Positions 10,924-34,005 are shown, numbered from the stretch's first letter. The stretch is DNA of 64,000 nt from Sulfurovaceae bacterium (GCA_028714675.1 JAQTLV010000001.1:41507-105506); one strand, 5' to 3'. Made by a program: numbers and translations. The notes: generated by a model from the sequence alone, not told the origin.

Positions 10924-11772
10924 TTATTTTAATATCTCGATCTTACTCCCAAGATTTGCCATCCCACAAAAATAAACTTTACTTGTAACAACACCATCAA
11001 TACCAGTAAGCACAAAATCTCTGACATTTTCTTTGTCAATTCCTCCAGCACCAAGTATTTTAACAAGAGGATAGTGTTCATTTTTGTATGTTACAATTTT
11101 ACTTAAAACTTCAAGGCTAGTTTTATCCATCTGTAATACATCTACGCCATTTTGCATTAATGCTATGGCATCATCAAAGTCTTTTGGCTCTACAACAATT
11201 TTTTTCTCTAAAGCTTTTATTTTTGTTTCTCTTAATGCTTCGTAAAATATTTCATCATTATCATATATTTTGCGGTGGTGTTCAAAAAAGAGTATAGTTT
11301 CGCTAAGACCAAGCCTATGAGGCATAGCTCCTCCACACATTATAGATTTTATGCAAAATCTTTTTGCAAATGGAAAATGTTTTCTAGTTACTAGTAATTC
11401 GCAATGTGGATTTATATCTCTAATTTCTTGATTCATTTCATAAGCATATGTAGCTATTTTGCAAGAATACTCCAATATTACTTGAGCAGATCGCCATGCA
11501 CTCTGTACACCCTCATAGCTTCCGCCAAACTCTAGTAAAACATCTCCTTGTTTTGCCTTAGTGCCAGATGGAAGCATAAAAAGCACTTCACATCCATTAA
11601 GTTCAGCTATTCTTGCAGCTTCTTCGCCACATGCTACGATAACATCTTCTCTTGTAAAAATTTGGAGTTTAGCTTTTTTGTCAGATGCACATTGTAAGTA
11701 TGTTGTTAGGTCAAAATATGGCACATCTTCTTTTATATATTCAAGTAGCTCCACATCGTTTAGTTTAAACAT
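10924..11772 (-). CDS. modD: ModD, quinolinate-phosphoribosyltransferase-like protein
   Basis: This protein (282 aa) has the fold of nicotinate-nucleotide pyrophosphorylase (NadC). Residues such as TRKHFPFAKR and the segment FEHHRKIY, together with a typical C-terminal barrel (LGAGGI), match the ModD subgroup found with molybdate transport genes, for example in Rhodobacter. The biochemical role of ModD is unsettled; phosphoribosyl transfer to a small acid is the fold's usual chemistry. Its place in a minus-strand run downstream of a ModE-like box supports the ModD rather than the NadC assignment. Confidence 0.8.
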   Translation of the reverse strand: MFKLNDVELLEYIKEDVPYFDLTTYLQCASDKKAKLQIFTREDVIVACGEEAARIAELNGCEVLFMLPSGTKAKQGDVLLEFGGSYEGVQSAWRSAQVILEYSCKIATYAYEMNQEIRDINPHCELLVTRKHFPFAKRFCIKSIMCGGAMPHRLGLSETILFFEHHRKIYDNDEIFYEALRETKIKALEKKIVVEPKDFDDAIALMQNGVDVLQMDKTSLEVLSKIVTYKNEHYPLVKILGAGGIDKENVRDFVLTGIDGVVTSKVYFCGMANLGSKIEILK

Positions 11773-13426: not shown

Positions 13427-15502
13427 TTAGAATGTATATCTTATATCACCATAGTACATTCTGCCTGCTTCTGGGAATCCATAGCTATAATAATAGTTTT
13501 TATCCAATATATTACTTATGCCTAAATCCAATGATATATTTTTATTTATATCATATATAACCTTTGTATTCCAAAGAGAAATTGAGCCAGTAGTGTCATA
13601 AACATTCTTAACATTAGGAGCTGTTCCAGTAGTACCCACAGAGGCATATCGCTTTGAATTATACTCATAAGTGTTTAGCCATGTTAGTTTTTCAAAAGGA
13701 CTATAAGATACTGTAGCAATAAACTTATGTTTTGGAACATCTGTAATTTTTTGAGACGCATCAATTTCATTGGACATATCAAGATAGGTATAACTTCCTT
13801 CTAGTGTTAGGGAATCTATAGGGATGTAAATTGCTGAAAGCTCAAGACCTTTTTGGGTAACTTTACCAATATTTTGGAGTTGCTGTTGTTGTGTATATGT
13901 GCTACCGCTTTTATACCACAGTGGTATATAAGTACTTTGAATATAATCGCTTATATCTGCATAAAAAACAGCACCACTAATAGATCCAGAGCTAAAAGTT
14001 TTTGTTCCACCAATTTCATAATTGATTGTTTTTTCTACATTTAGGTCTGGATTAGGTACAAATGTTTTAAATTTAAATGAATAACGATCTTTCAAAGATG
14101 GGATACGACTTTTGCCCGCTATGCCACCATACCAAGAGAGAGTATCATTAATTTTTCCATCTAGTTTCAAAATAGGATTAAAAGATGAGGTGTCACCATT
14201 TTCAAACTCTTTGGTTGTTGAATAGCCAGTAGTGGTATTTGGGATTGTTCCCGCAGCATCGTCGTAGTATGCTTCCGTTGCTCCATAGTTTGTATTTTGT
14301 GCTACATCAATTTTTTCTTTATCATAGCTCGCTCCCAAGGTTAGTTTTAGAGTATCAGAAATTGCATAAGAATCCTCTAATCCCAATGAACCAACTTGAT
14401 CTTTCATATTATATACGGCTGTTTGGTTTGCTCCGCCTTCTTTGTGGCTATCAACTTTATAGTGAAGTGCCATTTTTAAAGTATTTACATCAGATGTTCT
14501 GACACCAGTTTCGACAGAACCACCTCTAGTGTATTCATCATACCAGCTTGGATTCCCTACCCCACCATAACTATATGTTGAGTATGTATTGTCTGTATAT
14601 ATTGCAAGCGAGTTTTTAAATGTATCATTAAATAAGCGCGTTTTTACATACCACTTGCCAAAATCAGTTTTTGAAAGAAAATATAAACTTTCTTTATCCC
14701 AATATTTCCACTGCCAAAATCCTCTTTTTGATAAGTTTGCTGCTTCATCTGGCGGAACGCCCTTGTCTGCAGTTTGGCGAATATAATTTAGTGCATATTC
14801 ATCTGTATCATTTGGGGTATAACCTATTTTGAAGTTTATTTTATCATCTTTTGCATATGCATTATTACGGTCTCCTCCATCTTCATTTGTTGTATTTTTA
14901 GGTACAAAATCATCAGAAAGCGGATAAGTATCTCGTTTTGTTTCGGAAACAGAAGCTTGTATATAGTATTTGCCTTGATTAGAACCTACATTGAGATATC
15001 CTATTTTTCCATTTCCACTAAAAAGACCTACGCCAGCATCTCCTTCAAAGCTTTTGCTCGGTTTTTTGGTAACGAGATTAATAGCACCAGCAAAAGTATT
15101 TACTCCAAGCAATGGAGATGTAAGTCCTTTTGAAACTTCAATTTCTGATAGATCAAAAGTTGTAAATCTAGAAAAATCAACATATCCATCATATGGCACA
15201 GCAACAGGAATGCCATCAATAAATAAAGGTGCATGTTTGACATCGAATCCACGAATCATGATCATTTGTTCATTTCTGGCACCAAAATTTTGTATTGTTG
15301 CACCAGGGATTAGGTCTAATGCTTCAACGATTGTTTTTCTATTTTGATCTTTTATTTCTTGTGAGTCAATAATATTTACAGAAGAGCTGTATTGAGTGTC
15401 AATGGTTGCATTAACATCAATCTTTCCAAGATTAAATACATTATCATCACCATAAAGTGCAGATATAGCAGACATTGATAGAATTAATAAGTGTTTGTTC
15501 AT
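13427..15502 (-). CDS. TonB-dependent outer membrane receptor (receptor 1)
   Basis: This is a 691-residue TonB-dependent receptor: signal peptide (about 1-18), plug domain with QEIKDQNRKTIVEALDLIPG and IRGF...FIDGIPV (about 50-115), then a long beta-barrel ending in a terminal Phe (RYTF). Such proteins import scarce chelates across the outer membrane using TonB energy. It follows the globin gene by 30 bases in a unit headed by the ModE-like box at 16157-16180. No binding-protein gene is adjacent, unlike receptors 2 and 3. The substrate is inferred to be a molybdenum, tungsten or similar species from context only. Confidence 0.9.
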   Translation of the reverse strand: MNKHLLILSMSAISALYGDDNVFNLGKIDVNATIDTQYSSSVNIIDSQEIKDQNRKTIVEALDLIPGATIQNFGARNEQMIMIRGFDVKHAPLFIDGIPVAVPYDGYVDFSRFTTFDLSEIEVSKGLTSPLLGVNTFAGAINLVTKKPSKSFEGDAGVGLFSGNGKIGYLNVGSNQGKYYIQASVSETKRDTYPLSDDFVPKNTTNEDGGDRNNAYAKDDKINFKIGYTPNDTDEYALNYIRQTADKGVPPDEAANLSKRGFWQWKYWDKESLYFLSKTDFGKWYVKTRLFNDTFKNSLAIYTDNTYSTYSYGGVGNPSWYDEYTRGGSVETGVRTSDVNTLKMALHYKVDSHKEGGANQTAVYNMKDQVGSLGLEDSYAISDTLKLTLGASYDKEKIDVAQNTNYGATEAYYDDAAGTIPNTTTGYSTTKEFENGDTSSFNPILKLDGKINDTLSWYGGIAGKSRIPSLKDRYSFKFKTFVPNPDLNVEKTINYEIGGTKTFSSGSISGAVFYADISDYIQSTYIPLWYKSGSTYTQQQQLQNIGKVTQKGLELSAIYIPIDSLTLEGSYTYLDMSNEIDASQKITDVPKHKFIATVSYSPFEKLTWLNTYEYNSKRYASVGTTGTAPNVKNVYDTTGSISLWNTKVIYDINKNISLDLGISNILDKNYYYSYGFPEAGRMYYGDIRYTF

Positions 15503-15532: not shown

Positions 15533-16132
15533 TTATTCTCCTGCCAATTCTTTTTTTACGCTACTCCAATAATGGCGTTTTATGCCATCCATTGTTGTAC
15601 GTCTGTTAATCATACGAATAGAAAGTGCTTCAATCCAATTCCAAAACTCTTCTAAGTGTTCTTTTGGGAAAGATATATCTTTGAGAGTTTTTTTATACAT
15701 TGCAAGCCAAATTTCACGATCACTTTCATCTATTGGAACGGTAAAATGACGCATTCTTAGATGAAATCCACCATATTGCTCAGTAAACACAGGACCTCCT
15801 CCTAATGCTTCTACAAACAAATCTGCACTTTTATCAACAGCTATTTTAAATCCTTCTTCATCTTTGGGAAAAAGGTTTCCAACTTTTGTTTTTGCTAGTA
15901 GGCGATGATGATACCAAACCATCTCTCTTATCTTATCTTCTCCAATAGCTTTGAATATCTTATTGGATGGAAATGGAACAGGAGGATATATGACATCTAT
16001 CATAGCATCTACAATTCTAATTTCATCCCCACCAAAATTAGGTTTACTAGCATTAGGAGGCATATTTGCTACTTGAGTAAAAGATTTTATATCTCCATGT
16101 TGACAGCTATTGTTTTCTTTATGTTCACTCAT
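15533..16132 (-). CDS. Truncated-hemoglobin-like globin with N-terminal extension
   Basis: This is a 199-residue globin of the truncated (2/2) type, closest by eye to group II. The probable proximal His is H129 in LRMRHFTVPI, with W142 in REIWLAMY as the conserved distal-pocket region. An extension of about 35-40 residues precedes the globin fold and contains a CQH near the start. Such proteins bind oxygen or NO, or act as haem oxygen sensors or mono-oxygenase-like partners. It is the first gene after a strong sigma70 promoter and a ModE-like operator. The start is supported by AAAGGAAG upstream. Why a globin is controlled by molybdenum status is open. Confidence 0.85.
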   Translation of the reverse strand: MSEHKENNSCQHGDIKSFTQVANMPPNASKPNFGGDEIRIVDAMIDVIYPPVPFPSNKIFKAIGEDKIREMVWYHHRLLAKTKVGNLFPKDEEGFKIAVDKSADLFVEALGGGPVFTEQYGGFHLRMRHFTVPIDESDREIWLAMYKKTLKDISFPKEHLEEFWNWIEALSIRMINRRTTMDGIKRHYWSSVKKELAGE

Positions 16133-16146
16133 CTTCTTCCTTTAAG

Positions 16147-16205
16147 TTATTTTATCCGTTGTATATAAAATAATATAACGAGTATTATACATTTTTTGTT
16201 CCTTA
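16147..16205 (-). repeat. Duplicated promoter-operator cassette, copy A
   Basis: This 59-base segment is the same as 21541-21599 at 54 of 59 positions by hand alignment. It holds the -10 box, the 24-bp palindrome and the downstream GGATAAAATAA element. One copy precedes the globin gene and the other precedes receptor 2, which implies duplication of a regulatory unit. Confidence 0.8.
16157..16180 (-). promoter_or_regulatory. ModE-like operator of the globin unit
   Basis: The 24-bp palindrome on + reads CGTTGTAT-N8-ATATAACG, with arms at 16157-16164 and 16173-16180. It has the half-site and spacing of the E. coli modA ModE operator as I remember it. It begins 3 bases after the -10 box and thus covers the expected transcription start, a repressor position. 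A ModE homologue is encoded at 33232-34005. Confidence 0.75.
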
Positions 16206-16212
16206 TTGTAAA
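16184..16212 (-). promoter_or_regulatory. Sigma70-type promoter of the globin unit
   Basis: On the minus strand TTTACA (16207-16212) and TATAAT (16184-16189, preceded by TG) are separated by 17 bases, an almost ideal vegetative promoter. The -35 box lies within the last codons of the upstream oxidoreductase gene, so this promoter is internal to the gene cluster. Confidence 0.75.
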
Positions 16213-17213
16213 TAAGGTCTGATTTTTGTATTAAAATCTTCTAACATCAAATAGTTTTGGTTAGCATCACTTGATGATGGTTTAAGAATCAGATGAAGAT
16301 TTGGCAACAACTTTTGTATATTGCAAATAGTATCAATACATTGTGATGGTGTTCCCAAAATTGCATTGTCAAAAAACTTTTGCCCATCAAAAAATGCTTC
16401 ACGCTCTTTAAGTATGGCATCATAATTTTCACGATTCCACTTAGGGGCGGGAACTTCGGAAGAAGCAGCACGCATTGATTTGACAAAGTGATCTATAGAT
16501 GGGCGAATAATACGGTAAGCATCATCATATGTGTCTGCTATACAAAATACACGCATTAATACAATTTCTGGGATAAATCCAGCAATAGAAAAGTATAGAT
16601 TTTGTGCATCTTCACACTCTTTTAGACTAGCTCCTTGTGACATTAATAATCCATAGCCATTTTTGGCAGCAAATTTTATCGTATCAGGATTGGCAAATGT
16701 TGCAACAAAAAAAGGAACCCTTTTTTGTATGGGCTTTGGCTGTAAAACAACATCTTGAAATGATGCAAATATTCCATCATAAGAAGGACTTGGAAGGTGC
16801 AAGAGTCTATCTATGGACTCTGTAATTTCAAACATTGCATTACGTAAGCTATCTGGATCGCGTTTAAAGTGTTTATTGTCTGGGGCAAATCCGCCCTTTG
16901 CAAATCCAGCATTGATTCTTCCGCTTGAAAGATTGTCCAATACTGAAATACTCTCGGCCAATCGGACAGGATGATAAAAAGGGGCAAGAAATCCAGCCGT
17001 TCCTATGCGTATATTGCTTGTTTTTGCTATAGCATATGCCATCATCACAGCAGGATCTGGAATAACACTAAAACCATTAAAATGATGTTCGCCAAACCAT
17101 GCCTCATCAAAGCCTAATTTATCGGCAAGCTCTACAAGCCGTAGTTGATCCATAATACTTTTTTGTACTGTACCTTCAAAATGCTCAGTAAGACAAAATA
17201 TTCCTATTTTCAT
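16203..17213 (-). CDS. LLM-class (luciferase-like) flavin-dependent oxidoreductase
   Basis: This is a 336-residue TIM-barrel protein of the bacterial luciferase-like monooxygenase family. The N-terminal MKIGIFCLTEHF, the motif AWFGEHHFNGF (about 39-49) and GTAGFLAPFYHPVRLAE (about 93-109) are typical. These enzymes use reduced flavin and O2 or F420 to oxidise small organic substrates, and the substrate here is unknown. The gene lies 9 bases after a methyltransferase gene and ends in the promoter of the globin unit. Placement in a Mo-acquisition island suggests modification of a ligand or a scavenging reaction, as inference. Confidence 0.88.
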   Translation of the reverse strand: MKIGIFCLTEHFEGTVQKSIMDQLRLVELADKLGFDEAWFGEHHFNGFSVIPDPAVMMAYAIAKTSNIRIGTAGFLAPFYHPVRLAESISVLDNLSSGRINAGFAKGGFAPDNKHFKRDPDSLRNAMFEITESIDRLLHLPSPSYDGIFASFQDVVLQPKPIQKRVPFFVATFANPDTIKFAAKNGYGLLMSQGASLKECEDAQNLYFSIAGFIPEIVLMRVFCIADTYDDAYRIIRPSIDHFVKSMRAASSEVPAPKWNRENYDAILKEREAFFDGQKFFDNAILGTPSQCIDTICNIQKLLPNLHLILKPSSSDANQNYLMLEDFNTKIRPYLQ

Positions 17214-17222
17214 TTACATTCC

Positions 17223-17840
17223 TTATTTAGTTATGATAGTCCAAAATCCACTTTCGTCATTGACAAGCTCATAACCCATTGGGTTAAGGGATGCAAGTAT
17301 GCTAGGCAATGCATCTCGTTCAGGCTTAAGTCTATCTTTAAATGAATTACGCCAGTCTGGATTGTTTTCGCTCATGGTTTTAATAATCCCTTCTCTTAGC
17401 TCAGCATTACCAAACCCACCACCAATATATGTCATGCCACCAGGTTTTAATACGCGTATTATTTCACTATATGCTTTATACCAATCATCCCAAAATGGAG
17501 AAGAACCTCTACTAATTACAATGTCCACACTCTCATCTTTTAGTGGGATAGAGTGAATGTCTCCTTGCAAGAATGTGCTCCTGTTGGCAATATTTTCATC
17601 GCTTGCATATCCTTTTGCAAGTTCCAACATTTCATCTGATTGGTCAAAGAAGGTGATATCTAAATTTGTAATTTTAGCTATTGCTCGCCCCAATGCTCCA
17701 GTGCCACATCCAGCATCTAGGCACTTGCCATTTTTGATAGCTGTTTTGGCCACGATTTGCTCTGCAATAATAGGATATATTGGAGCAAATACCTCTCTTA
17801 CTATTCGATCAAAACTTTGAGGATTTGTTGCGCCTTTCAT
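17223..17840 (-). CDS. Class I SAM-dependent methyltransferase
   Basis: This is a 205-residue small methyltransferase (Methyltransf_11/25 type). Motif I is CLDAGCGTGALGRAI (about 40-54), motif II is FFDQSDEML, and the motif around SVDIVISRGS is followed by IRVLKPGGMTYIGGG. The substrate is unknown. It is unlike the methyltransferase at 12581-13372 in its C-terminal region. It is flanked by the two-helix membrane protein and the flavin oxidoreductase in the unit that starts with receptor 2, so it may act on the same small molecule. Confidence 0.87.
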   Translation of the reverse strand: MKGATNPQSFDRIVREVFAPIYPIIAEQIVAKTAIKNGKCLDAGCGTGALGRAIAKITNLDITFFDQSDEMLELAKGYASDENIANRSTFLQGDIHSIPLKDESVDIVISRGSSPFWDDWYKAYSEIIRVLKPGGMTYIGGGFGNAELREGIIKTMSENNPDWRNSFKDRLKPERDALPSILASLNPMGYELVNDESGFWTIITK

Positions 17841-17889
17841 ATATTCTCCTTATAAAAAATTTGTTTTAGCTTTTTAAACAATACAACTT

Positions 17890-18390
17890 TCATACACTAA
17901 ATGAACCTTTTGTTGTAAAAGCATTCCATGTATGGCGTTCTAAAATCATTGTAAAAATCTTTGATACATCATAATTATTCTCTGTTGCTATATTCTCTAT
18001 AGTGTTATCTAAATCACATCTATATATTTTCTTTTGTAACAATATAGGCATTATCGTTGCTTTATCTACATCAAAAAAATCACAAATTTCTTGTAATGAT
18101 TTTTTCTTTAGAGCATTTGGAAGCAACTGAGATTCACATGCAAAGGCATACTCTTTTTTTGTTGCTATATAATACATTGATTTAAAAAGTCTTACAAATC
18201 TTCTTCTCATTAAAAAAAGATGTACAGATAGTGCAGCCAAAAAAATAATACCTGCACTATAATGCCACAATATTAACTCAATGTTGTACCCAAGTATTTT
18301 GTTTGCTGTAATAGTTGTCAATACTGTCATAACACAAGAGAGCATTATGGCAATAGTTGTAGCCTTGATTATCACGATTTTATTGTCCAT
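17890..18390 (-). CDS. Two-helix membrane protein with paired histidines, DUF4405-like
   Basis: This is a 166-residue protein with two hydrophobic helices (about 8-30 and 41-61). The second carries His residues in LWHYSAG and SVHLFLM, spaced about 14 residues apart, as in b-type haem helices of cytochrome b561/DUF4405-like proteins. A basic segment RRRFVRLFKS follows and then a soluble C-terminal domain of about 95 residues with an HTH-like helical character (LQEICDFFDVDKATI). The function is unknown. It lies 10 bases after a binding-protein gene. A role in reducing an imported metal species at the inner membrane is speculative. Confidence 0.65.
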   Translation of the reverse strand: MDNKIVIIKATTIAIMLSCVMTVLTTITANKILGYNIELILWHYSAGIIFLAALSVHLFLMRRRFVRLFKSMYYIATKKEYAFACESQLLPNALKKKSLQEICDFFDVDKATIMPILLQKKIYRCDLDNTIENIATENNYDVSKIFTMILERHTWNAFTTKGSFSV

Positions 18391-18400
18391 TTTTTCCTCC

Positions 18401-19444
18401 TTACATTTTGTTTGTTGGATATAAAATTTCTTGAACTTGCTTGTCGCTCAATGAAATACTCATAAATAGTTGATAAAAAGCTCTAGTCTCTTTTTTGATA
18501 TCAATATTATACTCTTTGGGATAAAGTTTACTCATTAGCCACTTTAAACCCATTATGCGCATAAATGATGGTGGGCGATCAAACCAATTAAATGGAGCTT
18601 TTGGAATCAAGTAAACTCTTTTGTTTTTTACAGCAGATACATTTGACCATATGGGAATATTTTTGATTTTGTCATAAAATATTTTTTCTTGGACAATGAC
18701 TACATCTGGGTTATAAGCCAAAACAGTTTCCATAGATACTTTCTCAAAGCCTTTATGGTTTGAAGTGTGACATTTATGAACATTTACATCGCCAGCCATT
18801 TTAAGCAGCTCTACATGTATAGAGTCATCACATTCTGTGCTAAGCCCATCTAGCCCTTCGGCATAATAAACTTTTGGTCTTTTTTTTGCAGGAATCTTGG
18901 AAACAACATTTTGTGCATCAATAAAAGTTTTTTGAGTATAAGAAGCGAGCTTATCCCCTCTTTCTTTTTTGTTTAAAGCATTGCCTAAAAATTTGAATAT
19001 TTTAGGATAGTCTTTTATGTTTTCATCTACTGCATATACAAATGGAACATTTAGAATTTTTAGCTTTTGTGCTTCTTTGTCATTAAATTCATTTTGATGT
19101 GACCACATTAGTATCAAATCAGGGTGTGACGCTAGAAGTATTTCCATATTTGCACTCTGACCGGCACCAAATACTCGTCCTATTGTTGGTAGGGTCTGCA
19201 TTCGTTTGTTGAGATATGGATAATCATTTTTATTTATTTCAAAAATCCATCCAGCTAAAAGAGATGGATCCATAGCATACAAAGCATATGATCCATATGG
19301 AGATGGAGCATAAACTTTTTTAGGATTTTGTGGGACTTCTACTTTTCGTCCCAACATATCAACAATTTCTCTCGCCATAGCCTCACCTGTTGTAATCAAA
19401 AATATTATAGACATTAAGATAGTTATTTTAATACTTTTTTTCAT
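18401..19444 (-). CDS. MolA/FecB-type periplasmic binding protein (A)
   Basis: This is a 347-residue type III (helical backbone) substrate-binding protein for a B12/iron-chelate/molybdate class ABC importer. A signal peptide (about 1-24) precedes the typical DMLGRKVEVP start. A motif YYAEGLDGLSTEC (about 193-205) and RPPSFMRIMGLKWL near the C-terminus are shared with the two other binding proteins at 21611 and 26617. Its stop-side neighbour encodes the two-helix protein, and it follows receptor 2 with no gap. The Haemophilus MolA precedent and the ModE-like box upstream of receptor 2 suggest an Mo/W-containing ligand, but iron, nickel or cobalt chelates cannot be excluded. Confidence 0.85.
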   Translation of the reverse strand: MKKSIKITILMSIIFLITTGEAMAREIVDMLGRKVEVPQNPKKVYAPSPYGSYALYAMDPSLLAGWIFEINKNDYPYLNKRMQTLPTIGRVFGAGQSANMEILLASHPDLILMWSHQNEFNDKEAQKLKILNVPFVYAVDENIKDYPKIFKFLGNALNKKERGDKLASYTQKTFIDAQNVVSKIPAKKRPKVYYAEGLDGLSTECDDSIHVELLKMAGDVNVHKCHTSNHKGFEKVSMETVLAYNPDVVIVQEKIFYDKIKNIPIWSNVSAVKNKRVYLIPKAPFNWFDRPPSFMRIMGLKWLMSKLYPKEYNIDIKKETRAFYQLFMSISLSDKQVQEILYPTNKM

Positions 19445-21520
19445 TTAAAACTCCGCTCTTAATTCAAAACCAAGTGTTCGTCCACGGTCATAATAGTATC
19501 CAGTGGTATAGCGCGTTGCATATTGATCATTGCCCAAGTTGCGACCATATAGTTTTCCAGTTACAATAAAATCGTTAAACGCAAAATCTCTTTCTATATT
19601 TGCATCTATGCGAGTATATCCTCCTAAGTTAACATTATAAGCAACCCCCATCGCACTAGTTGATTGATTCCATTCATCTATACGTTTAGCAGAGATGTTG
19701 GCACGATAATTGTCCCATGAGTGGCTTAAAAGTGCCGTAAAACTGTTTGCAGGAGTTTCTACTCCTACGGTATCTGTTGTTACTCCGCCAACTGTATTTG
19801 AATTATCAAACATATGCGTCCATCCAAATTTATAGTTTGTGTTTGTGCCGATATTTCCTTTGAGAGTCAATTCCATACCACGACGATGTGAGTCTGATTC
19901 TGTGTAGTAATAATAGATATTACCATCAGAGTCTGTATAAGTAGCATCTGTAGCTGTTTTTTGATTTTTGATATCTACATCAAACCAAGTAACTGTTGGT
20001 TTAAAATAAGGAGATACAGACGCTTCTAGTGCAATTTCAATACGATCTTGTTTTTCGGCATGAAGAGGGTCACCACTTTGTGTTGCGAGATCAAAATCAC
20101 CTGATGTTCCTTCGTCTCCTTTGAAGTAACGACCACTTAGTGTGAACATATCATTTATATGCCATAATGCTCCTGCTGCTATTATGCTTGCTGGAGCCAT
20201 ATCAACATCATTATTTGCATCATTGTTTGTTGCTTTTGTGCTAGAATAGTTTATATGTTTTATATCCCTACGATATCCAGCATCTAAAATTACCTTTCCA
20301 TCAAAAAGCTTTTGCTCTACAGAAGCAGACCATCCTTTTACATCGGTATCAAAACGATTATAGCTTTTGCTTAAATTTGGACCAAAGCCTTTGCTATTTG
20401 TAAATTGTCCACCAAGCTGTATAAGAGTGTTGCCAAAGGTAGCATTGTGACGTAAGCTGTATGTTCTTGTATTTTCTTCATAGTGTTTTTCAGCGTGTGA
20501 TGTGTTTGCAAAATTTTCATTTATCTCGGTTTGTTGATAATTTACTTTGCCAATAGAAAAAAGAGTAATTTGATTTTCATTCCACTTCATACTCATATCG
20601 GCTGAGTATATAGATGTTTTTAAAGGGTCATAATACCATTTTGAATTATCTAGCACTCCAGCAACCGTAACTCCTCTTTGCATTTCAAAACTTCCAGTAT
20701 CTTTGTATCCCATCAAATTAAGATTAAATCTACCAATATTAAATCCACCATTAATCATTCCTGCATCAGCATCACTTCCATCAAACCATGTATCTTTGCT
20801 AGGACGATTATATCTAGAAGCCATAGCACTCATATAACCACCATCAGATGAATTTTTAGATGTAAATCTTGTTCCAAGATATATATCTTGACCATTTGCC
20901 GTAGGCTGAGAATTTGCTTTTTCAACATATGTTGAAATGGAGCCCTCGGTACTTTTGGGCTGTTTGGTTCTAATAATAACAAAGCCAGTATTTATACCAG
21001 AACCACTATTTGAAGCACCTATTCCAATAGAAGGAGCAAGAGATAGTGCTGTAGAGCCTCGCACAACCTGAATCTCTTCAATAGCAGACATTGGTATTTT
21101 TTGTAGTATTCTATCAGCAGAAGAAGGAAGTATTACACCATCAAGAATATATGTTATATTTCCTCCACCACGAATGTTTAAGAAATAAGGGTGTTTGCGC
21201 CCTTGATAGGTTGCATCAACCCCTATTGCTTTGTCCAAAAGATCGAAAAAGTCTTTTGGGGCATATGCATCAATATCTTCTTTGGTTATTACTTGTGTTC
21301 CAGCTTGTGCGGTTTTTTCTACACGATATAAGTTAGTTACACTATCTAATTTTAAGTCATCTCTTGTTTTTGTAGAGTTGCTATCAGCTTTTACCTCTAT
21401 CGTATCCAAGTCTTTATAAACACTTGTTTCGTTTGCTTGTAATGCAATTGTTGAAAAGAGCAATGCAGCTACCAAAGGGCTTATAAGAGTATTTTTTGTT
21501 GACATTTCTTTTGTGTTCAT
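19445..21520 (-). CDS. TonB-dependent outer membrane receptor (receptor 2)
   Basis: This is a TonB-dependent receptor (691 aa from the chosen start). It has a signal peptide, plug (TQVITKEDIDAYAPKDFFDL, then IRGGGNITYILDGVI), and a beta-barrel ending in Phe. The open frame extends to 21586, but the ATG at 21520 is preferred. It has AAGGAAG upstream, is followed directly by a signal peptide, and the upstream ATG lies before the expected transcription start at about 21571. It is the first gene of a unit with binding protein A, the two-helix protein, a methyltransferase and the flavin oxidoreductase. Confidence 0.9.
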   Translation of the reverse strand: MNTKEMSTKNTLISPLVAALLFSTIALQANETSVYKDLDTIEVKADSNSTKTRDDLKLDSVTNLYRVEKTAQAGTQVITKEDIDAYAPKDFFDLLDKAIGVDATYQGRKHPYFLNIRGGGNITYILDGVILPSSADRILQKIPMSAIEEIQVVRGSTALSLAPSIGIGASNSGSGINTGFVIIRTKQPKSTEGSISTYVEKANSQPTANGQDIYLGTRFTSKNSSDGGYMSAMASRYNRPSKDTWFDGSDADAGMINGGFNIGRFNLNLMGYKDTGSFEMQRGVTVAGVLDNSKWYYDPLKTSIYSADMSMKWNENQITLFSIGKVNYQQTEINENFANTSHAEKHYEENTRTYSLRHNATFGNTLIQLGGQFTNSKGFGPNLSKSYNRFDTDVKGWSASVEQKLFDGKVILDAGYRRDIKHINYSSTKATNNDANNDVDMAPASIIAAGALWHINDMFTLSGRYFKGDEGTSGDFDLATQSGDPLHAEKQDRIEIALEASVSPYFKPTVTWFDVDIKNQKTATDATYTDSDGNIYYYYTESDSHRRGMELTLKGNIGTNTNYKFGWTHMFDNSNTVGGVTTDTVGVETPANSFTALLSHSWDNYRANISAKRIDEWNQSTSAMGVAYNVNLGGYTRIDANIERDFAFNDFIVTGKLYGRNLGNDQYATRYTTGYYYDRGRTLGFELRAEF

Positions 21521-21540
21521 TTTCTTCCTTCTTCTTTTAT

Positions 21541-21599
21541 TTATTTTATCCGTTATATATAAAACAATATAACGACCAATATACATTTTTTGTTCCTTA
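21541..21599 (-). repeat. Duplicated promoter-operator cassette, copy B
   Basis: This is the partner of the segment at 16147-16205 (54 of 59 identical by hand). Differences fall mainly in the three bases between -10 box and operator and in the palindrome centre, so the functional parts are conserved. Confidence 0.8.
21551..21574 (-). promoter_or_regulatory. ModE-like operator of receptor 2 unit
   Basis: This is a perfect palindrome CGTTATAT-N8-ATATAACG (arms 21551-21558 and 21567-21574). It is the cleanest of the four sites in this window and begins 3 bases after the -10 box, where a bound repressor would occlude transcription start. Confidence 0.8.
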
Positions 21600-21610: not shown

Positions 21611-22579
21611 TTATTTTGGGAAAAATATTTTTTCAAATCTTTGTTTTTCTTGAGCTATCGGTTTGATTAAATTTGGGTAAAATGAATGGATTAACCATCT
21701 TATCCCCATTAATCTCATCAATGATGGCGGTCGGCTAATATAATTGAATGGTTCTTCTGGAACAATCAAAACACGATTTGTTTTAACTGCATTAAGTGAG
21801 CTCCATTTAGAACTCTTGTGTATAGAGTTTGCAAAAGTTTTATCCATTGCTATAATGACATCAGGGTTTGACAGGATAATTTTTTCCATAGAAATTTTTT
21901 CCATTCCATAATCAGATGACATTTTGCAATTTATAGCATTTTTAGCTCCGGCATATTTAAATGGTTCTAAATGAAACGACCCTTCGCATTCAGTTGATAG
22001 TCCATCTGAACCTTCTGCAAAATAGTAACTAACTTTTTTATGTGACTTAACTTTGCTTTGAAGAGAGTTAAAAAGTCCAAGCGTTTCTTTTGTATAAGAT
22101 ATAAGTGCATTGGCTCGTTTTGTATTTCCAGTTAGCTTACCTAAAAGAGAAAATTGTCCCACAAGATCATTTATTGATTCATTATGCACCATTATTACTG
22201 GAATTCCAAGAGCATTAAGTTTGGATAGTGCATTTTGATTGCCAGTCATACCTCCCCACATAAGTATAACATCAGGTTTTATTGTGGCCAATACTTCATA
22301 GTTTGGAGTGTTTCCTTGTCCAAAAAATCCACCTGCAACAGGCTTAGAGGCAGCAACGCCAACATATGGTATTTCATTTTTTCTTAGTGGAAAATTGAGT
22401 GCAGCAACAAGAGATGGATCAAAAGCAATAATGCTTATTGTGAGCGGAGGTGATGAGGCGTAAATTTTAGTTATTTTATCAGGTATAGTAACCGTTCTGC
22501 CATAATCATCAATGATAGTTCTAGCATAGGTATTGCTAAAAGATAAAAACACAAACAAAAAAATCATTGTTTTTTTCAT
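21611..22579 (-). CDS. MolA/FecB-type periplasmic binding protein (B)
   Basis: This is a 322-residue binding protein with a signal peptide (about 1-19), DDYGRTVTIPDKITKIYAS at the start of the mature domain, the shared motif FAEGSDGLSTECEGS, and RPPSLMRLMGIRWL near the C-terminus. Its ATG overlaps the stop codon of the ATPase gene (TAATG), so translation is coupled to the importer genes. This makes it the most direct partner of the permease/ATPase pair. The ligand is inferred to be molybdate/tungstate or a chelate, as for the other two. Confidence 0.87.
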   Translation of the reverse strand: MKKTMIFLFVFLSFSNTYARTIIDDYGRTVTIPDKITKIYASSPPLTISIIAFDPSLVAALNFPLRKNEIPYVGVAASKPVAGGFFGQGNTPNYEVLATIKPDVILMWGGMTGNQNALSKLNALGIPVIMVHNESINDLVGQFSLLGKLTGNTKRANALISYTKETLGLFNSLQSKVKSHKKVSYYFAEGSDGLSTECEGSFHLEPFKYAGAKNAINCKMSSDYGMEKISMEKIILSNPDVIIAMDKTFANSIHKSSKWSSLNAVKTNRVLIVPEEPFNYISRPPSLMRLMGIRWLIHSFYPNLIKPIAQEKQRFEKIFFPK

Positions 22580-23367
22580 TATATTCCTTTATTAAAAACA
22601 GGTATGCAGCGCGTATGAGAGCCGTGTTCTATAAAATCAGCCTCTACACCGTAAACACTATTAATCATATCAGGATTAATAACATCTTTTGGATTACCAT
22701 TTGCGATAATTTTCCCACCATTCATTACAACAACACGACTTGATACCATTAGGGCATGATCTGGGTAGTGTGTAGTTTTTAGAAAGGTATAACCTTGATC
22801 GCTTAATTTTGAAATTGTTTCAAGCAAGCGGATTTGATTGCCATAGTCCAGTCCAGATACTGGCTCGTCCATGATGAAGGTATCAACTTCTTGAGTAAAT
22901 GCACGAGCTAGAAGCACCATTTGTTTTTGACCTCCACTTAATTGCCCAAAAGCCTGGTTTGCAAGATTTTCAATACCAATTTTACGCATAGACTCATGCG
23001 CTATGTCATAATCTTTTTTCGATGGCATAGCAAAAAGACCAAGTTTACTTACTCTTCCCATCATTACCATTTCTAGTACACTATAGTTAAACGGAACACT
23101 GTGATATTGTGGGATATATGCCACATGAGACGCAATTTCTTTGTGAGAATAGTTGCGAATATCTTTTTGGTTGAGCAATATATCGCCACTATCGGTATTC
23201 ATAAGTTTAAGCATTAGTCTAATGAGTGTGCTTTTGCCACAACCATTTGGACCGAGCAAGCTAACAACCTCTCCACGATTGATATTAAAATCAATACCGT
23301 TAAGTATCTTTTTTTTAGAGTAAGCAAAATGTAAATTTTTGATAGTAATAATTGAATTTAATTCCAT
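22579..23367 (-). CDS. ABC importer ATPase, MolC/FecE/BtuD type
   Basis: This is a 262-residue ATP-binding subunit: Walker A GPNGCGKS (39-46), Q-loop in IPQYHS, signature LSGGQ (143-147), Walker B TFIMDE (163-168) and the switch His in KTTHYPDHA. It belongs to the vitamin B12/iron-chelate class (type II importers), which includes MolC of Haemophilus influenzae for molybdate. It overlaps the permease gene by 10 bases. It is the only ATPase of this class in the window and so presumably serves all three binding proteins. Confidence 0.9.
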   Translation of the reverse strand: MELNSIITIKNLHFAYSKKKILNGIDFNINRGEVVSLLGPNGCGKSTLIRLMLKLMNTDSGDILLNQKDIRNYSHKEIASHVAYIPQYHSVPFNYSVLEMVMMGRVSKLGLFAMPSKKDYDIAHESMRKIGIENLANQAFGQLSGGQKQMVLLARAFTQEVDTFIMDEPVSGLDYGNQIRLLETISKLSDQGYTFLKTTHYPDHALMVSSRVVVMNGGKIIANGNPKDVINPDMINSVYGVEADFIEHGSHTRCIPVFNKGI

Positions 23368-24377
23368 GCTGCCCTCGCATTTTTAAGTACTATTATAAAT
23401 ATAGGTATTCCTATAAGAGAGGTTAAAATGCCTATCGGAATTTCTACGCTAAAAGCTAAACGAGAGATTGAGTCTGCCAACAATAAGAAAATAGCTCCAA
23501 TAATTGCTGAAAGAGGAATTAATAATCTATGAGATGGACCAACTGCCATACGAACTATATGAGGAATAATTAATCCAACCCATCCTATCATTCCAGCCAT
23601 AACAACTGATAGTGAGCTTGCTAATGTTGCTAAAACTATAGCCCCAAAACGAACAAGTGCTACATTTACTCCTAATGCTTTTGCCTCTTCATCCCCAAGG
23701 CTTAAAAGATCAAAATATTTAGAAAGAATAATCATGCCAATAATACTAAACAGCATAGGAATACTAACATAAAGCACTCCAGACAAATCAGCCATTGTTA
23801 AACTTCCCATAAGCCAGTAAACAATTGCAGGAAGCGTACTATATGGATCTGCAACATATTTGACGATAGAAAGGAGTGCAGTAAAGAGTGATCCACTGAT
23901 AACACCGCCCAAAACCAACATAATTGTAGAACGAGAATTTGTTACCATCGAACCAACTAGCACAGCAACACCAACAGCGATAAATCCGAAAACAAACGCT
24001 AATGTTTGCACAATATACCATTGTTCGCTAATCAACATTCCAAGTGCTGCACCAAAGGATGCTCCAGCGAGAACTCCTAAAATTCCAGGAGAAACAAGTG
24101 GGTTTACAAACATTGCTTGAAAAGAAGCTCCTGACACTGCCAATGATGATCCTATCAATATTGCTAGAAGTATTCGTGGAAGGCGTATTTGAATGATAAT
24201 ATTATCTAAAAGCGTATAAGTATCATTTCCTACTCCTCCAAATAATTTAAAATTTAAATATCCAATAAATGTAGAAAAATCAATTGGGTATTGACCCCAC
24301 AAAAGTGATATTATAGCAATCATAATCAAAACTACAGATGCAGTACTAATTATTCCTAGGGCTTTTAAACTTTTCAT
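23358..24377 (-). CDS. ABC importer permease, MolB/FecCD/BtuC type
   Basis: This is a 339-residue polytopic membrane protein of the FecCD family with about ten hydrophobic segments. Family landmarks are visible: RLPRILLAILIGSSLAVSGASFQAMFVNPLVSPGILG in the first third and GLIIPHIVRMAVGPSHRLLIP in the last third. It would form a homodimeric channel with the ATPase encoded next. It lies 9 bases after receptor 3 in a six-gene unit that begins with tonB. Confidence 0.9.
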   Translation of the reverse strand: MKSLKALGIISTASVVLIMIAIISLLWGQYPIDFSTFIGYLNFKLFGGVGNDTYTLLDNIIIQIRLPRILLAILIGSSLAVSGASFQAMFVNPLVSPGILGVLAGASFGAALGMLISEQWYIVQTLAFVFGFIAVGVAVLVGSMVTNSRSTIMLVLGGVISGSLFTALLSIVKYVADPYSTLPAIVYWLMGSLTMADLSGVLYVSIPMLFSIIGMIILSKYFDLLSLGDEEAKALGVNVALVRFGAIVLATLASSLSVVMAGMIGWVGLIIPHIVRMAVGPSHRLLIPLSAIIGAIFLLLADSISRLAFSVEIPIGILTSLIGIPIFIIVLKNARAAWN

Positions 24378-24385
24378 TCTATACC

Positions 24386-26620
24386 TTAAAATTTCATATT
24401 GATGCCACAGTAAACTCCAAGCGGAGCTCCTGTTTGATAAGTACTAGCTGTACCAGTTGCAGCCAAAAAGTTATCCGCAGCATTTATAGTAGCGATATAC
24501 TCTTCGTCTGTTAAGTTGGTTATGGTTAAATTGAGCATAGTATTTTTAGAACCAAGGAGTTTGCCCATATCATATGCTACATCAAAATCTATTATTGTAA
24601 ATCCATCTATTTTTTGAGTATTTGCAACATCTCCCCATCTACTAGAAGTATAGCGCACACTTGGAGTCAAGATCCAGTCTCCTAAGTTATAAGACAATGT
24701 AGCTTTTGCCATATATTTTGGAGCATCTGGTAGTTGTTTTCCATCTGTTTGAACAGTTGCACTTGAAGAGCTTTGGAAGTCTTGAGTAAAATTATATTTA
24801 TTGTAAGACAATCCAGCCAAAAAGCTTAGATTATCAGTTATGTTGCCATATGCAGATAATTCAGCCCCATATCCTAGCGCATCTCCAACATTCGCTGGAT
24901 AGTTTACGCCATAAACAGGATCATAAATATTGGCTTGTTTGTTTTTGACAAACGAGACAAAAACATTTGGATTAATTGTAATTTCTCCTACTTTTGTTTT
25001 AACACCAATATCTATATTATCTGAAGTTTCAAGATCAAGGTTGTTCCATAGTTGTTGAAGGGTAACATTTTGAGCAACAAAAGTTGCACGATTTGACACA
25101 TAAGTTGGAAATAAATTTACATCAAAACCATATGTGCGAGAATAATCAATATATCCAGTGGTTGTTGGGGTAAATTCATATCCTAGATATAACGAAGGGA
25201 TTAATGTATGGAATGTTTTTGCGTCCACACTAGCCCATGAATCATAAGTAGAGGTTGCAAGTGCAGTATCATAATTTTGGCTTGTTGAACTATTTGTGCC
25301 TGTATAACTATCAATAGCACCCAATTTAAATGATTGATATTGTAAGCCAGCAGAGTAATTAAATTTACCCATATTTCCGCTAACTTCGGCAAATGGGGCT
25401 TGCAATACATGATAATCACTATCGGCAAGGATACCATATCCATCAAAAACAAGAGCTCCATTGACAACTCTATATTTTATTTGATCAGTAGGAGGTCCAG
25501 GAGGTAATTGTTTGTGATACCAGTATCCAACTTTTGTTTTTAATGCTTCAGAAAACTCATGATCATATTCTAGTGTTGCACCATAAAGATCATGGTCAAT
25601 TCTCCAATTCATTACACGCTGCTTTGTTGCTGTAGCATCAAATTTAGAGAACCAATAGTCACCATTATCTTTTTTATAGTAAGGTTTTAAGGTTATAGTA
25701 TCTTTTGATGTAGGTTTATATTCAACCTCCCCCATTAAAACAGTAGTGTCGAAGCTTTGTTTATTCCAATCATAATAATCAACATCATTGCTCGCGGTTG
25801 GATGTGTTGTTGCAAAATCTTTATTATAGTTAATCCCAAGAGCAGTTGCTTGTGCATAAGAAAGATTATAATAATTATGGTGATCATCGGAGTTGTGAAT
25901 AGCAAAGAATTTGGCTTTGAGCTTATCAGATGGCTCATAATTTAAACCAAGCATAGCGTTAGTTCTTTCTAGATCACCCTCCCCTTTATTTTTATCATTT
26001 GATAGATAAGAAAATGAACCAAAGGCACTTACATCACCAATTTTTCCAGAATCTAAACGCAAAAAGGTTCGCATAAAATTGTCACTTCCAAGAGATTGAG
26101 AAAATGTACCTCCAAAAGTTTCACTTGGGTCTAAAAGATTTATATCTACTTTTCCGATAAGACTAGAAAATCCTAAATTTTTTTCAATTGGCACATAACC
26201 TTTAAACAGATCAATAGATGCAACATTTTCCATGTCTATTATCTCTTTGCCACCCCCAGGGTTACTGGATATTGGCATACCATCTACCATAAAGACCCCA
26301 CCAGGACCTGATTGAGACTTCCCTCTAATTCGTATTGGATCATGATAAGAAGGCTCGTTTGAGCCTGCTGGATCTACTGGTGTAAAGTTTACAGAAGGTG
26401 AGTACTGTATAACAGAGTATGGATTCATATTGGCTTGTGTTCCTAATATCTCAATACTTTTTTTTGTAAAACTTTGTACCCCATTTGACATATTAGAATC
26501 GCCAATAAACCCAGTATTGTTTTTGTAAGTATCTGTTACAGCTATTTCTCCAAGATTTACAGTATCAGCAAATATTATTGTTGAAACAGCAATTGACATC
26601 ATCGGTATAATAATTTTCAT
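24386..26620 (-). CDS. TonB-dependent outer membrane receptor (receptor 3)
   Basis: This is a 744-residue TonB-dependent receptor with a signal peptide (about 1-18), a plug domain containing IRGKSQSGPGGVFMVDGMPI (about 96-115) and a barrel ending in NMKF. The plug has a longer loop near residues 75-95 than receptors 1 and 2. The start overlaps the stop of the binding-protein gene by 4 bases (ATGA). It is in the same unit as tonB, binding protein C, the permease, the ATPase and binding protein B. Confidence 0.9.
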   Translation of the reverse strand: MKIIIPMMSIAVSTIIFADTVNLGEIAVTDTYKNNTGFIGDSNMSNGVQSFTKKSIEILGTQANMNPYSVIQYSPSVNFTPVDPAGSNEPSYHDPIRIRGKSQSGPGGVFMVDGMPISSNPGGGKEIIDMENVASIDLFKGYVPIEKNLGFSSLIGKVDINLLDPSETFGGTFSQSLGSDNFMRTFLRLDSGKIGDVSAFGSFSYLSNDKNKGEGDLERTNAMLGLNYEPSDKLKAKFFAIHNSDDHHNYYNLSYAQATALGINYNKDFATTHPTASNDVDYYDWNKQSFDTTVLMGEVEYKPTSKDTITLKPYYKKDNGDYWFSKFDATATKQRVMNWRIDHDLYGATLEYDHEFSEALKTKVGYWYHKQLPPGPPTDQIKYRVVNGALVFDGYGILADSDYHVLQAPFAEVSGNMGKFNYSAGLQYQSFKLGAIDSYTGTNSSTSQNYDTALATSTYDSWASVDAKTFHTLIPSLYLGYEFTPTTTGYIDYSRTYGFDVNLFPTYVSNRATFVAQNVTLQQLWNNLDLETSDNIDIGVKTKVGEITINPNVFVSFVKNKQANIYDPVYGVNYPANVGDALGYGAELSAYGNITDNLSFLAGLSYNKYNFTQDFQSSSSATVQTDGKQLPDAPKYMAKATLSYNLGDWILTPSVRYTSSRWGDVANTQKIDGFTIIDFDVAYDMGKLLGSKNTMLNLTITNLTDEEYIATINAADNFLAATGTASTYQTGAPLGVYCGINMKF

Positions 26621-27642
26621 TTTTTAACTCCTAGTATATTTTTGGTTTGAGAATCCGTTATTTTTACATGTAAAAATAAATCATAAAACTCTTTCGTGCG
26701 TTTGTTTATGTCGACTTTGTAACTTTCTGGGTGAAGTATTTTGGCAAGCCACTGTATGCCAAGCACCCTCATAAATGATGGTGGACGATCAATCCAATTA
26801 AAAGGTTGATTAGGAACTAAATATATACGACCATTTTTGACAGCTTTTAAATTTTTCCACATCGAATCAAGCATAATGTCGTTATAAACCACAGGAGTTT
26901 GAACTATAATCACATCAGGGTTGTATTTCAGTAAAGTTTCAAATGAAATTTTTTCTAAACCCAAAAGTCCACTTTGTTGACATTTGTGTACATTAACTCC
27001 TCCAGCAAAATTTATTGCCTCAACATGAAAAGACTGATCACATTCTGTTGAGAGCCCATCAATACCTTCTGCATAATAGTATCTTGTAGGCTTTGTTTTT
27101 GCAGTATTTGATTTTACTTCATTGATTATCTTTTGTGAATAATTAGCCAAGAGTTCACCTCTTTTTTCTTCGCCTATAACTTTTCCTGTTACTCTAATAG
27201 AGTTGGGCATATCTTTTATTTCACGAAATAGAACCATAAAAGTAGGAACATTTACCTTTTTAACCTCTTTTTTTATAGTTTGAACCAAGAAATCATCTTC
27301 CCATACTAAAATAAGTTCTGGTTTATGAGCCATTAAAACTTCAAGGTTTATATTTTGTCCCCCACCATGATATGAACCAATTACAGGTAAAGATAGAAAT
27401 TTTTTAGTTAAAAATTTACCATCTGCTCCGTTTTGTGCATTTTTTGCTTTAAAATTTAGACCTATCATTTTGTTCGGATTTAAAGCATATATTAAATATG
27501 TCATTGGAGGGGAAGATCCAAAAACTCTATTTATATTGTTTGGTATTGTTATAACTTTACCTTCAGCATTTGTGATTGTTTGTGCTTCAAGAGACAGGCA
27601 CATTAACAATAATAAAAGTATTCGTAAAAATATGTTGTTCAT
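26617..27642 (-). CDS. MolA/FecB-type periplasmic binding protein (C)
   Basis: This is a 341-residue binding protein with signal peptide (about 1-20), the shared motif YYAEGIDGLSTECDQS and the C-terminal RPPSFMRVLGIQWL. It is closest by eye to binding protein A: both have a VHKCxxS segment after the STEC motif and a longer C-terminus. It is encoded between tonB and receptor 3. The conserved Cys in STEC and in the downstream NVHKC segment are unusual and could form a disulfide or bind ligand. Confidence 0.87.
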   Translation of the reverse strand: MNNIFLRILLLLLMCLSLEAQTITNAEGKVITIPNNINRVFGSSPPMTYLIYALNPNKMIGLNFKAKNAQNGADGKFLTKKFLSLPVIGSYHGGGQNINLEVLMAHKPELILVWEDDFLVQTIKKEVKKVNVPTFMVLFREIKDMPNSIRVTGKVIGEEKRGELLANYSQKIINEVKSNTAKTKPTRYYYAEGIDGLSTECDQSFHVEAINFAGGVNVHKCQQSGLLGLEKISFETLLKYNPDVIIVQTPVVYNDIMLDSMWKNLKAVKNGRIYLVPNQPFNWIDRPPSFMRVLGIQWLAKILHPESYKVDINKRTKEFYDLFLHVKITDSQTKNILGVKK

Positions 27643-27650
27643 TTTGTTCC

Positions 27651-28406
27651 TTATGATTTTTTTAGTGAAAAAGCTATTGGGAAGCTTAATCCAAGAGATT
27701 TTTTAGGGGCTGGATAATGACCGCTAAGGTTCATGATGGTTTGAATTGCTCTATCATCAAGCAAGTTACTTCCGCTAGTTGTTTTGACTTTGGCAGTTTT
27801 TACCGTGCCATCTGGATTAATGACAATAAACACTACTACAACACCCTCTATTTTCATTTTGCGTGCAACAGGAGGATATTTGACAGCATTTTTTATCATA
27901 GCCCATATTTGTTCTGGTGTTGCTCCCCCCAATTCTTGAGCAGAGCTTTTGTTTTCTGACAATTCATTTTTAGATTCACCTTTGGCATCTAAGCTATCAG
28001 AATTTGTCAAAGAAGGTGTCTCAACATGAGGTTGAACTGCAGGTTTAGACTCCTCAGAAGATACCACCGGAGAATGTAATGGTATCTTCTCAGGAGACTT
28101 TGAAATAGTATGTTTTAAAATTTTTTTCTCTGTTTGAGGTTTAGTCATAGGTTTGGATATATTCTCCTTGGTTTTTGGTTTGTCTAAAATTTGTTTATCA
28201 CCAGAAGTTGAAGAAAATTCTGACAAGGAGATATTGATGATTTTTTCCGATTTTGTTACAACAGGTTGGGCAGAAGAAACATAAAATATAACTAAAATCA
28301 ATGTGGTGTAGATTGCTAAAGATACCACAAGGGCTTGAATATTTCTCAATAAAACATTTTTTCGTTGTATGTTTTCAAACATAACGATATCATTAAAAAA
28401 AATCAT
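27651..28406 (-). CDS. tonB: TonB energy-transducing protein
   Basis: This is a TonB protein (251 aa) with one N-terminal membrane helix (about 26-46), a Pro/Lys/Ser-rich periplasmic spacer and a C-terminal TonB domain with KYPPVARKMKIEGVV and DGTVKTAKVKTTSGS. It transfers proton-motive energy to outer membrane receptors. The ATG at 28406 has AAAGGAG upstream. No exbB or exbD gene is present in the window, so it must use partners encoded elsewhere. It is the first gene of the unit with binding protein C, receptor 3 and the importer, and a ModE-like box lies inside its first codons. Confidence 0.9.
   Translation of the reverse strand: MIFFNDIVMFENIQRKNVLLRNIQALVVSLAIYTTLILVIFYVSSAQPVVTKSEKIINISLSEFSSTSGDKQILDKPKTKENISKPMTKPQTEKKILKHTISKSPEKIPLHSPVVSSEESKPAVQPHVETPSLTNSDSLDAKGESKNELSENKSSAQELGGATPEQIWAMIKNAVKYPPVARKMKIEGVVVVFIVINPDGTVKTAKVKTTSGSNLLDDRAIQTIMNLSGHYPAPKKSLGLSFPIAFSLKKS
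28363..28386 (-). promoter_or_regulatory. ModE-like operator inside the tonB 5' end
   Basis: On + the sequence reads CGTTGTAT-N8-ACATAACG (arms 28363-28370 and 28379-28386). The left arm is identical to that of the globin-unit site and the right arm to the one at 33008-33015. It covers codons 7-15 of tonB. No clear -10 box stands 3 bases upstream, so the site would act as a roadblock, or the promoter lies in the 37-base gap before tonB. Confidence 0.65.
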
Positions 28407-32991: not shown

Positions 32992-33015
32992 CCTTGTATA
33001 TCTTACTACATAACG
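32992..33015 (-). promoter_or_regulatory. ModE-like operator of the mod operon
   Basis: On + this reads CCTTGTAT-N8-ACATAACG (arms 32992-32999 and 33008-33015), 15 of 16 arm positions equal to the tonB site. On the minus strand a -10-like TATTGT (33019-33024) stands 3 bases before it, the same distance as in the two cassette promoters. The last bases merge into the mop ribosome binding site. Confidence 0.65.
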
Positions 33016-33231
33016 AAAACAATAATGCAAAAAGCGTTCCATTGGTGGATAATTTGCCAATTGCAGAAGATTTATTTGTTTTAAAAGCACCGCTATATAT
33101 CAAATAATACATTGATAAGTATTTTAAAATCTTTAAAATGTTATCAAAATATTTTTTTATTACAAATAAAGTATAAAATAGTCATTTGATATAGATGTTT
33201 TTTACAAAGAATATATATTTTATTGTACCTT

Positions 33232-34005
33232 TTATATCCCTATTAGTATATTTTCACTTCCAAAAACACCATAAGCTTCCATTCCAACACTCAAACTTGA
33301 TGCTTCGTTTGTATTGTTTAGTGCCACAAGCATAAAGTCATCATCGGTTTTTAATCCTACTTCGCTGCCATTTTCATTTTGATTTATATATGATATTTTC
33401 CCTTTTATGGCATTTCCTTCGTTTCCATTTAAAGAATTTGTTATTTTTATATCATTGGCCTTAATAATGGCATATATATTTTGACCTTCGTGTATTCCCA
33501 TATTTTGAAGTGATTTTGTTGTTATTGTGGACACAAAGATAGTTTTTTCTTTGAAAGCAAGTTTTATCTTGCTTGATATATCATTTGACTCTATGGCAAC
33601 AACATCACATAAAAATTGATTTCTAGCACTTGTTGTTAGGAATGTTCGATTTAATATAGTTTGTAGTTTTGCAGGGTTGTCTCCAGCCTCTTTAAATCTA
33701 TCTATAAATTCATTATGTAATTTATCAAATTTTTCAAATGTAGCAAGCATCTCTTTGGCATAAAGAGTAAGAGTAGTTCCGCCACCTCCTTTTCCGCCAA
33801 TATGCTTTTCTAAAAGTGGTTGAGGAGAGACTTCGCCCATTTGTTTTAATGTATCCCAAGCTGCCTTATAGCTCATTTTCATAGCTTTACTTGCACTGTG
33901 GATTGAGCCAATTTGGTCTATTTTTTTAAGTAGCTCTACTCTGCCGCCACCTAAAAATGGTTTACCATTAATGTTAAGCCAAAATCTACCATCAAGTTCA
34001 ATCAT
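33232..34005 (-). CDS. modE: Molybdate-responsive regulator ModE
   Basis: This is the molybdenum-dependent transcription factor ModE (257 aa). The N-terminal winged-helix domain (about 1-110) contains GGGRVELLKKIDQIGSI and the HTH segment SASKAMKMSYKAAWDTL. The C-terminal half carries two TOBE domains, the first starting at SARNQF. Length and architecture equal E. coli ModE (262 aa). The start overlaps the hemH stop (ATGA), so it is expressed from the hemH promoter. It is the natural candidate to bind the four palindromes listed here, usually as a repressor when loaded with molybdate. Confidence 0.93.
   Translation of the reverse strand: MIELDGRFWLNINGKPFLGGGRVELLKKIDQIGSIHSASKAMKMSYKAAWDTLKQMGEVSPQPLLEKHIGGKGGGGTTLTLYAKEMLATFEKFDKLHNEFIDRFKEAGDNPAKLQTILNRTFLTTSARNQFLCDVVAIESNDISSKIKLAFKEKTIFVSTITTKSLQNMGIHEGQNIYAIIKANDIKITNSLNGNEGNAIKGKISYINQNENGSEVGLKTDDDFMLVALNNTNEASSLSVGMEAYGVFGSENILIGI

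Follow-up and report, generated by a model that had tools for sequence, protein, structure and literature searches.

Two nearly identical promoter-operator cassettes lie on the minus strand of the 64,000-nt stretch of DNA analyzed here (the window), which comes from a Sulfurovum-like bacterium, each in front of a different gene of the same molybdenum-uptake island. This led us to ask how the second cassette arose. Was a regulated promoter copied in front of genes that were new to the island, or was an existing operon divided between two copies? We also asked which signal the cassettes would respond to.

Two cassettes with one layout

The cassettes occupy positions 16147 to 16205 (copy 1) and 21541 to 21599 (copy 2). 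They are identical at 54 of 59 positions, exactly the number that a sequence-only reading had counted by hand. The next-best ungapped match to either cassette in the window is 35/59, and the best 59-mer match in Markov-random DNA of the same composition (three sets of 3.5 Mb, 10.5 Mb in all) is 36 to 37. Each cassette contains, in order, a −10-like hexamer, a gap of 3 bases, a 24-bp palindrome, and GGATAAAATAA; thus, the layout described earlier, with its downstream element, was found in both. Of the 42 positions that belong neither to the operator arms nor to the −10-like hexamer, 37 are shared by the two copies. For comparison, 119 additional ModE-like sites gave a mean of 13.8 shared noncore positions (standard deviation, 3.2) and a maximum of 21.

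All genes of the island described here are on the minus strand. Copy 1 separates LLM, encoding a luciferase-like monooxygenase (16203 to 17213; PF00296, 180 bits), from a gene for a Bac_globin-family hemoglobin (15533 to 16132; PF01152, 39 bits), which is the first gene after this copy and is followed by the TonB-dependent receptor gene TBDT_C (13427 to 15502; PF00593 and PF07715). Copy 1 begins with the stop codon of LLM (16205 to 16203). Copy 2 lies between SBP2 (21611 to 22579; PF01497; PDB 4pag, 188 bits), which closes the first operon, and TBDT_B (19445 to 21520; PF07715), which encodes a TonB-dependent receptor with a plug domain. TBDT_B, the first gene after copy 2, likely starts at 21520; its longest open reading frame extends to 21586, within the cassette. 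It is followed by SBP3, encoding a Peripla_BP_2 metal-chelate-type binding protein (18401 to 19444; PF01497), gene 17890, the S-adenosylmethionine methyltransferase gene MT (17223 to 17840; PF08241), and LLM, with which the copy 2 unit ends.

The search for further copies, proposed with the original observation, was performed. A whole-genome pattern search found no third copy in the 1.75-Mb genome to which the window belongs. Among 175 genomes of the family, the cassette with at most 2 mismatches occurred only in G001, which has both copies, and in G401, which has one related copy. The 32-base left half of the cassette was found in no other genome among 399 genomes of the order, a sample that does not include G001. 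We therefore rejected a mobile or dispersed general repeat: there were no copies at unrelated loci in this genome or in the 175 family genomes.

The palindromes match the ModE operator

The E. coli ModE consensus is ATCGnTATATA-N6-TATATAnCGAT (PMC545781), and CGTTATAT-N8-ATATAACG is its core. The palindrome of copy 2 (21551 to 21574), with the perfect palindrome arms CGTTATATTGTTTTATATATAACG, has no mismatches to this core, and that of copy 1 (16157 to 16180), CGTTATATTATTTTATATACAACG, has one. These are the best and second-best sites of the 1.75-Mb genome, the sole sites with 0 and 1 mismatch, respectively. The chance expectation is 0.009 sites at 1 mismatch or fewer and 0.55 at 2 or fewer. 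The sites with 2 mismatches beyond the island (L093 and L094) are inside unrelated coding genes, and we took them as chance matches. Compared with CGnTATATA-N6-TATATAnCG, the operator form found at E. coli modABCD and at related Geobacter sites, copy 2 has 15 of the 16 defined bases and copy 1 has 14.

The island has two further ModE-like operators, one before mop/modA (32992 to 33015; 3 mismatches) and one within the first codons of tonB (28363 to 28386; 2 mismatches). The latter is embedded in coding sequence, and an operator is similarly placed in G003 (L071) and G400 (L076).

A full-length gene for a predicted molybdate-sensing regulator, ModE, is located at 33232 to 34005, 11.6 kb from the nearer cassette. 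Its product scored 144 bits against PRK10676 and 109 bits against the PDB structure of E. coli ModE, 1o7l, over residues 10 to 255 (the helix-turn-helix and molybdate-binding region). The Mop domain scored 66.6 bits (cutoff, 55), and TIGR00637 (the ModE_repress domain) scored 88.2 bits, below its curated cutoff of 98.5. The island also encodes modA, modB, modC, and mop genes, three TonB-dependent receptors, and three Peripla_BP_2 proteins. The ABC ATPase, FecCD permease, TBDT_A, and SBP1 genes (22579 to 27642) combine a TonB-dependent receptor with a MolBC/BtuCD-type importer, and they are adjoined by the tonB open reading frame (27651 to 28406). The top PDB match of the permease is MolB HI1471 (2nq2; 213 bits), and SBP1 matches 4pag and MolA HI_1472. 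The importer thus resembles H. influenzae MolBC-A (PMC4031551) in having a FecCD-type permease closest to MolB and a binding protein related to MolA. However, unlike MolBC-A, it stands with TonB-dependent receptors, a dedicated tonB, and three binding proteins, and its substrate is putative. At the end of the island, a ModD-like (QPRT-fold) gene (10924 to 11772; 170.9 bits against an NCBIfam cutoff of 178.85) adjoins folE, nifS, and nifU-like genes.

ModE-like operators recur before uptake genes in Campylobacterota

TBDT_A, the marker of the island, is present in 29 of the 399 order genomes. In most of 15 further islands from several families, operators matching at 14 to 16 of 16 bases stand before SBP1-TBDT_A-FecCD-ABC, tonB, modA, globin, TBDT_B, methyltransferase-LLM, or TBDT_C. 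These operators are often directly behind modE, which adjoins operator sites in G277, G401, G335, G323, G237, and G329. Whole-genome scans of 12 relatives placed most sites with 0 or 1 mismatch in such islands, and the nonisland sites in G010 and G401 lie before TBDT_C homologues or a second TonB/FecCD cluster. Given the operator sequence, the nearby modE gene, and this recurrence in relatives, the prediction that both cassettes respond to molybdenum is well supported.

Two relatives have additional arrangements. G010 has a second, separate island with the order operator-LLM-FecCD-ABC-operator-TBDT-SBP-TBDT (L040, 2415 to 10430). In G009, a 1-mismatch ModE-like operator (L087, 5147 to 5170) precedes an operon for a 968-amino-acid protein and a ferredoxin-type partner protein. 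Annotated by eye, this operon reads like a molybdoenzyme, and the regulon may extend past uptake.

Gene order in relatives points to a divided operon

We compared the order of the genes behind SBP2. It is SBP2-operator-globin-TBDT_B-MT-LLM-TBDT_C in the congener G005 (L037), SBP2-operator-globin-another TBDT-MT-LLM-TBDT_C in G003 (L038/L071), SBP2-operator-TBDT_B-globin-LLM-TBDT_C in G329 (L081), and SBP2-degenerate operator-TBDT_B-MT-LLM-TBDT_C in G400. In the window and in its sister G001 (Sulfurovum enrichment clone C5; locus L036), copy 2 fills the slot, and the order is copy 2-TBDT_B-SBP3-17890-MT-LLM-copy 1-globin-TBDT_C. Only these two genomes have the second operator, and there is no operator between LLM and TBDT_C in G005, G003, G009, G400, or G329. 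This distribution indicates that the position of globin behind LLM is derived and that the SBP2 slot is old. No genome in an intermediate state, carrying globin at both positions, was found. In G001, SBP2 itself has been lost between the ABC gene and copy 2, and the cassette is retained (L036, 4480 to 4640).

The leaders of the slot genes gave a second line of evidence. The leader and start of TBDT_B in G001, AAAACAAGGAGTAAAACAATGAA, equal those of globin in G005 at 18/18 upstream bases and at 23/23 bases through the start. Among 393 candidate starts, the next-best leader had 14/18, and that of TBDT_B in the window was tied behind it with 13. Such identity is the remnant that would be expected had globin moved out of the slot and passed its leader on to TBDT_B. 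Thus, the cassette at 21541 to 21599 would lie at the old operon head and that at 16147 to 16205 at the new position. A similar leader, AAGGAGTAAACAATGAAC, stands directly before TBDT_B in G400, where there is no globin, and the leader may therefore belong to the slot, with globin having come and gone.

Most likely, then, the duplication accompanied the relocation of globin and split an existing operon, and neither globin nor TBDT_B was recruited as a new gene. From the gene orders, we infer the operon boundaries and the following order of recombination. Relatives have these genes in what appears to be a single transcription unit, with one operator adjoining SBP2. In the ancestor that the window genome shares with G001, globin would have moved from the head of this unit to the junction of LLM and TBDT_C, and its departure would have left the old operator before TBDT_B. 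The two operator regions would then have acquired the same left arm, by copying from one to the other or by gene conversion. We consider it probable that the cassettes are two copies of one ModE-repressed promoter region, between which the old operon was re-divided.

Source of the shared arm

The segment AAGGAACAAAAAATGTATAnTnnnCGTTATAT is common to all four copies, two in the window and two in G001. To its right, both window copies and G001 copy 1 agree, whereas G001 copy 2 has the slot-type sequence. G401, which belongs to a different genus, has a related cassette, ATGTACAATATCCGTTATATTATTTTTAACATAACGGATAAAAT, immediately ahead of a TBDT_C homologue; this cassette agrees at 25 of the 42 noncore positions, above all 119 other sites. 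Copy 1 may therefore be the native TBDT_C promoter, into whose unit globin moved and whose left arm was later copied into the slot. As to the direction of copying, the leader evidence suggests that copy 2 is the old slot, and the G401 cassette suggests that copy 1 is the source of the shared arm.

These observations bear on a variant of the divided-operon explanation in which copy 1 has another source. It holds that there were two independent old operators, one in the SBP2 slot and one as the native TBDT_C promoter, and that globin jumped into the TBDT_C unit, with short-range gene conversion across the palindromes making the two sites alike. The G401 TBDT_C behind the related cassette is 72% identical and has the same leader type, and G001 copy 2 is chimeric, with a left arm like that of copy 1 and a right arm and leader like those of the slot. 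However, five relatives lack an operator between LLM and TBDT_C, and the G401 match is moderate. We find two old operators conceivable but would not favor them over one.

A more general proposal, which is speculative and which we think improbable, is that ModE operators of Campylobacterota act as recombination joints, with short conversion or crossover between palindromes shuffling genes among coregulated units. If true, this would explain why almost every genome has globin, LLM, TBDT_B, and TBDT_C behind different operator copies, as well as why the chimera of G001 copy 2 is split into left and right at the operator.

Promoter type and predicted repression

Copy 1 has the −10-like hexamer TATAAT (16184 to 16189) and, at a spacer of 17 nt, the −35-like hexamer TTTACA (16207 to 16212), which is in the end of LLM, outside the duplicated unit. 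With a score of 11/12, this is the best sigma-70-like site in the 17 kb scanned. Copy 2 scores 9/12, with TATATT (21578 to 21583) and a weak −35, TTCAAA (21607 to 21602), at a spacer of 18; it has no equal to the TTTACA of copy 1. The sequence-only reading had proposed that a molybdenum-responsive promoter was copied. The duplication of a ModE operator is supported, and the predicted molybdenum response is well founded, but the proposed promoter lacks a −35 common to both copies.

An alternative is that the cassettes are sigma-54-type promoters, with GGAAC-N5-ATGTAT as the −24/−12 element and ModE over the start. This concerns the promoter type only and would fit alongside the division of the operon. 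In the promoter of the window's mod operon, GGAAC-N5-TTGCAT lies nine bases ahead of the ModE operator (32992 to 33040), and the internal spacing of the cassette element is equal to that of the mod operon. The combination GGAAC-N5-TTGYAT at the same spacing to a ModE-like operator of a mod or uptake operon occurs in four congeners and the window genome, only 5 of the 399 order genomes, and rpoN is encoded in this genome. However, the cassette has GT where the −12 GC is expected, copy 1 holds the top sigma-70-like site, and the G401 relative retains TACAAT but not GGAAC. We consider sigma-54 unlikely here. In the four congeners, the sigma-54-like arrangement with a ModE operator often has a second operator some 60 to 100 bp away.

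For the divided operon, the repression logic follows what is established for E. coli ModE. Since the −10-like hexamer ends 4 bases ahead of the operator, transcription is expected to start within the operator, which begins at about −3 relative to this start, and bound ModE would cover the start and block initiation. From these positions, we infer the start sites, ModE binding, and repression. When molybdate is plentiful, dimeric ModE-molybdate would bind CGTTATAT-N8-ATATAACG and block RNA polymerase. Molybdate scarcity would relieve this block and yield two transcripts, TBDT_B-SBP3-17890-MT-LLM from copy 2 and globin-TBDT_C and further genes from copy 1. A site over the expected transcription start is also a feature of the E. 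coli modABCD operators. Unlike at modABCD, several operators are present per cluster here, and they stand before TonB receptors, globin, and a MolBC-like importer, beyond modABC.

Were new genes placed under the promoter?

It had been suggested that the island expanded by copying a molybdenum-responsive promoter in front of new genes. In keeping with such growth, two sister genomes each carry a pair of near-identical cassettes, operators precede varied genes in other islands, and the corresponding G005 unit lacks SBP3 and 17890. However, the two genes that immediately follow the cassettes, globin and TBDT_B, already share one operator in G005, and the slot operator precedes globin in G003 and TBDT_B in G329. 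In addition, TBDT_B of G001 retains the leader of G005 globin. Neither gene was thus new to the regulon, and we regard promoter capture as quite improbable.

Least probable is that the left arm, AAGGAACAAAAAATG, serves as ribosome site and start codon for a small leader peptide (MYxxRYI...), with translation rather than ModE constraining the block: all four copies have the Shine-Dalgarno-like AAGGAAC at the correct spacing to ATG, and at copy 2 the reading frame runs on into TBDT_B without a stop, but the G001 copy 2 frame stops after 7 codons, third codon positions hold 0 of the 5 changes between the window copies, the G401 relative lacks AAGGAAC, and the ATG would lie upstream of the expected transcription start. 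We rejected coding constraint by a small open reading frame on the codon positions of the changes and the G001 stop.

A putative ModE regulon

The divided-operon reading makes this locus a clear case of operator duplication dividing one operon into two. More broadly, the recurring operators point to a conserved ModE regulon in Campylobacterota that is predicted to turn on TonB-dependent outer-membrane receptors, a MolBC-like importer, and globin during molybdate shortage. If expression agrees, TonB-dependent uptake of molybdenum or a molybdenum chelate would become directly testable. We found no description of this regulon in the literature searched for ModE with TonB or for ModE in Campylobacterota. 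In the related bacterium Campylobacter jejuni, a single ModE-like regulator likewise controls molybdenum and tungsten transport; we know of no TonB receptor island in that system.

The receptor at the end of this gene order has a separate history. The window's TBDT_C shares 87% identity with its G009 counterpart but only 35% with that of the sister G001, and the G001 protein is 75% identical to that of G005 and 72% identical to that of G401. TBDT_C therefore appears to have been replaced at a conserved position.
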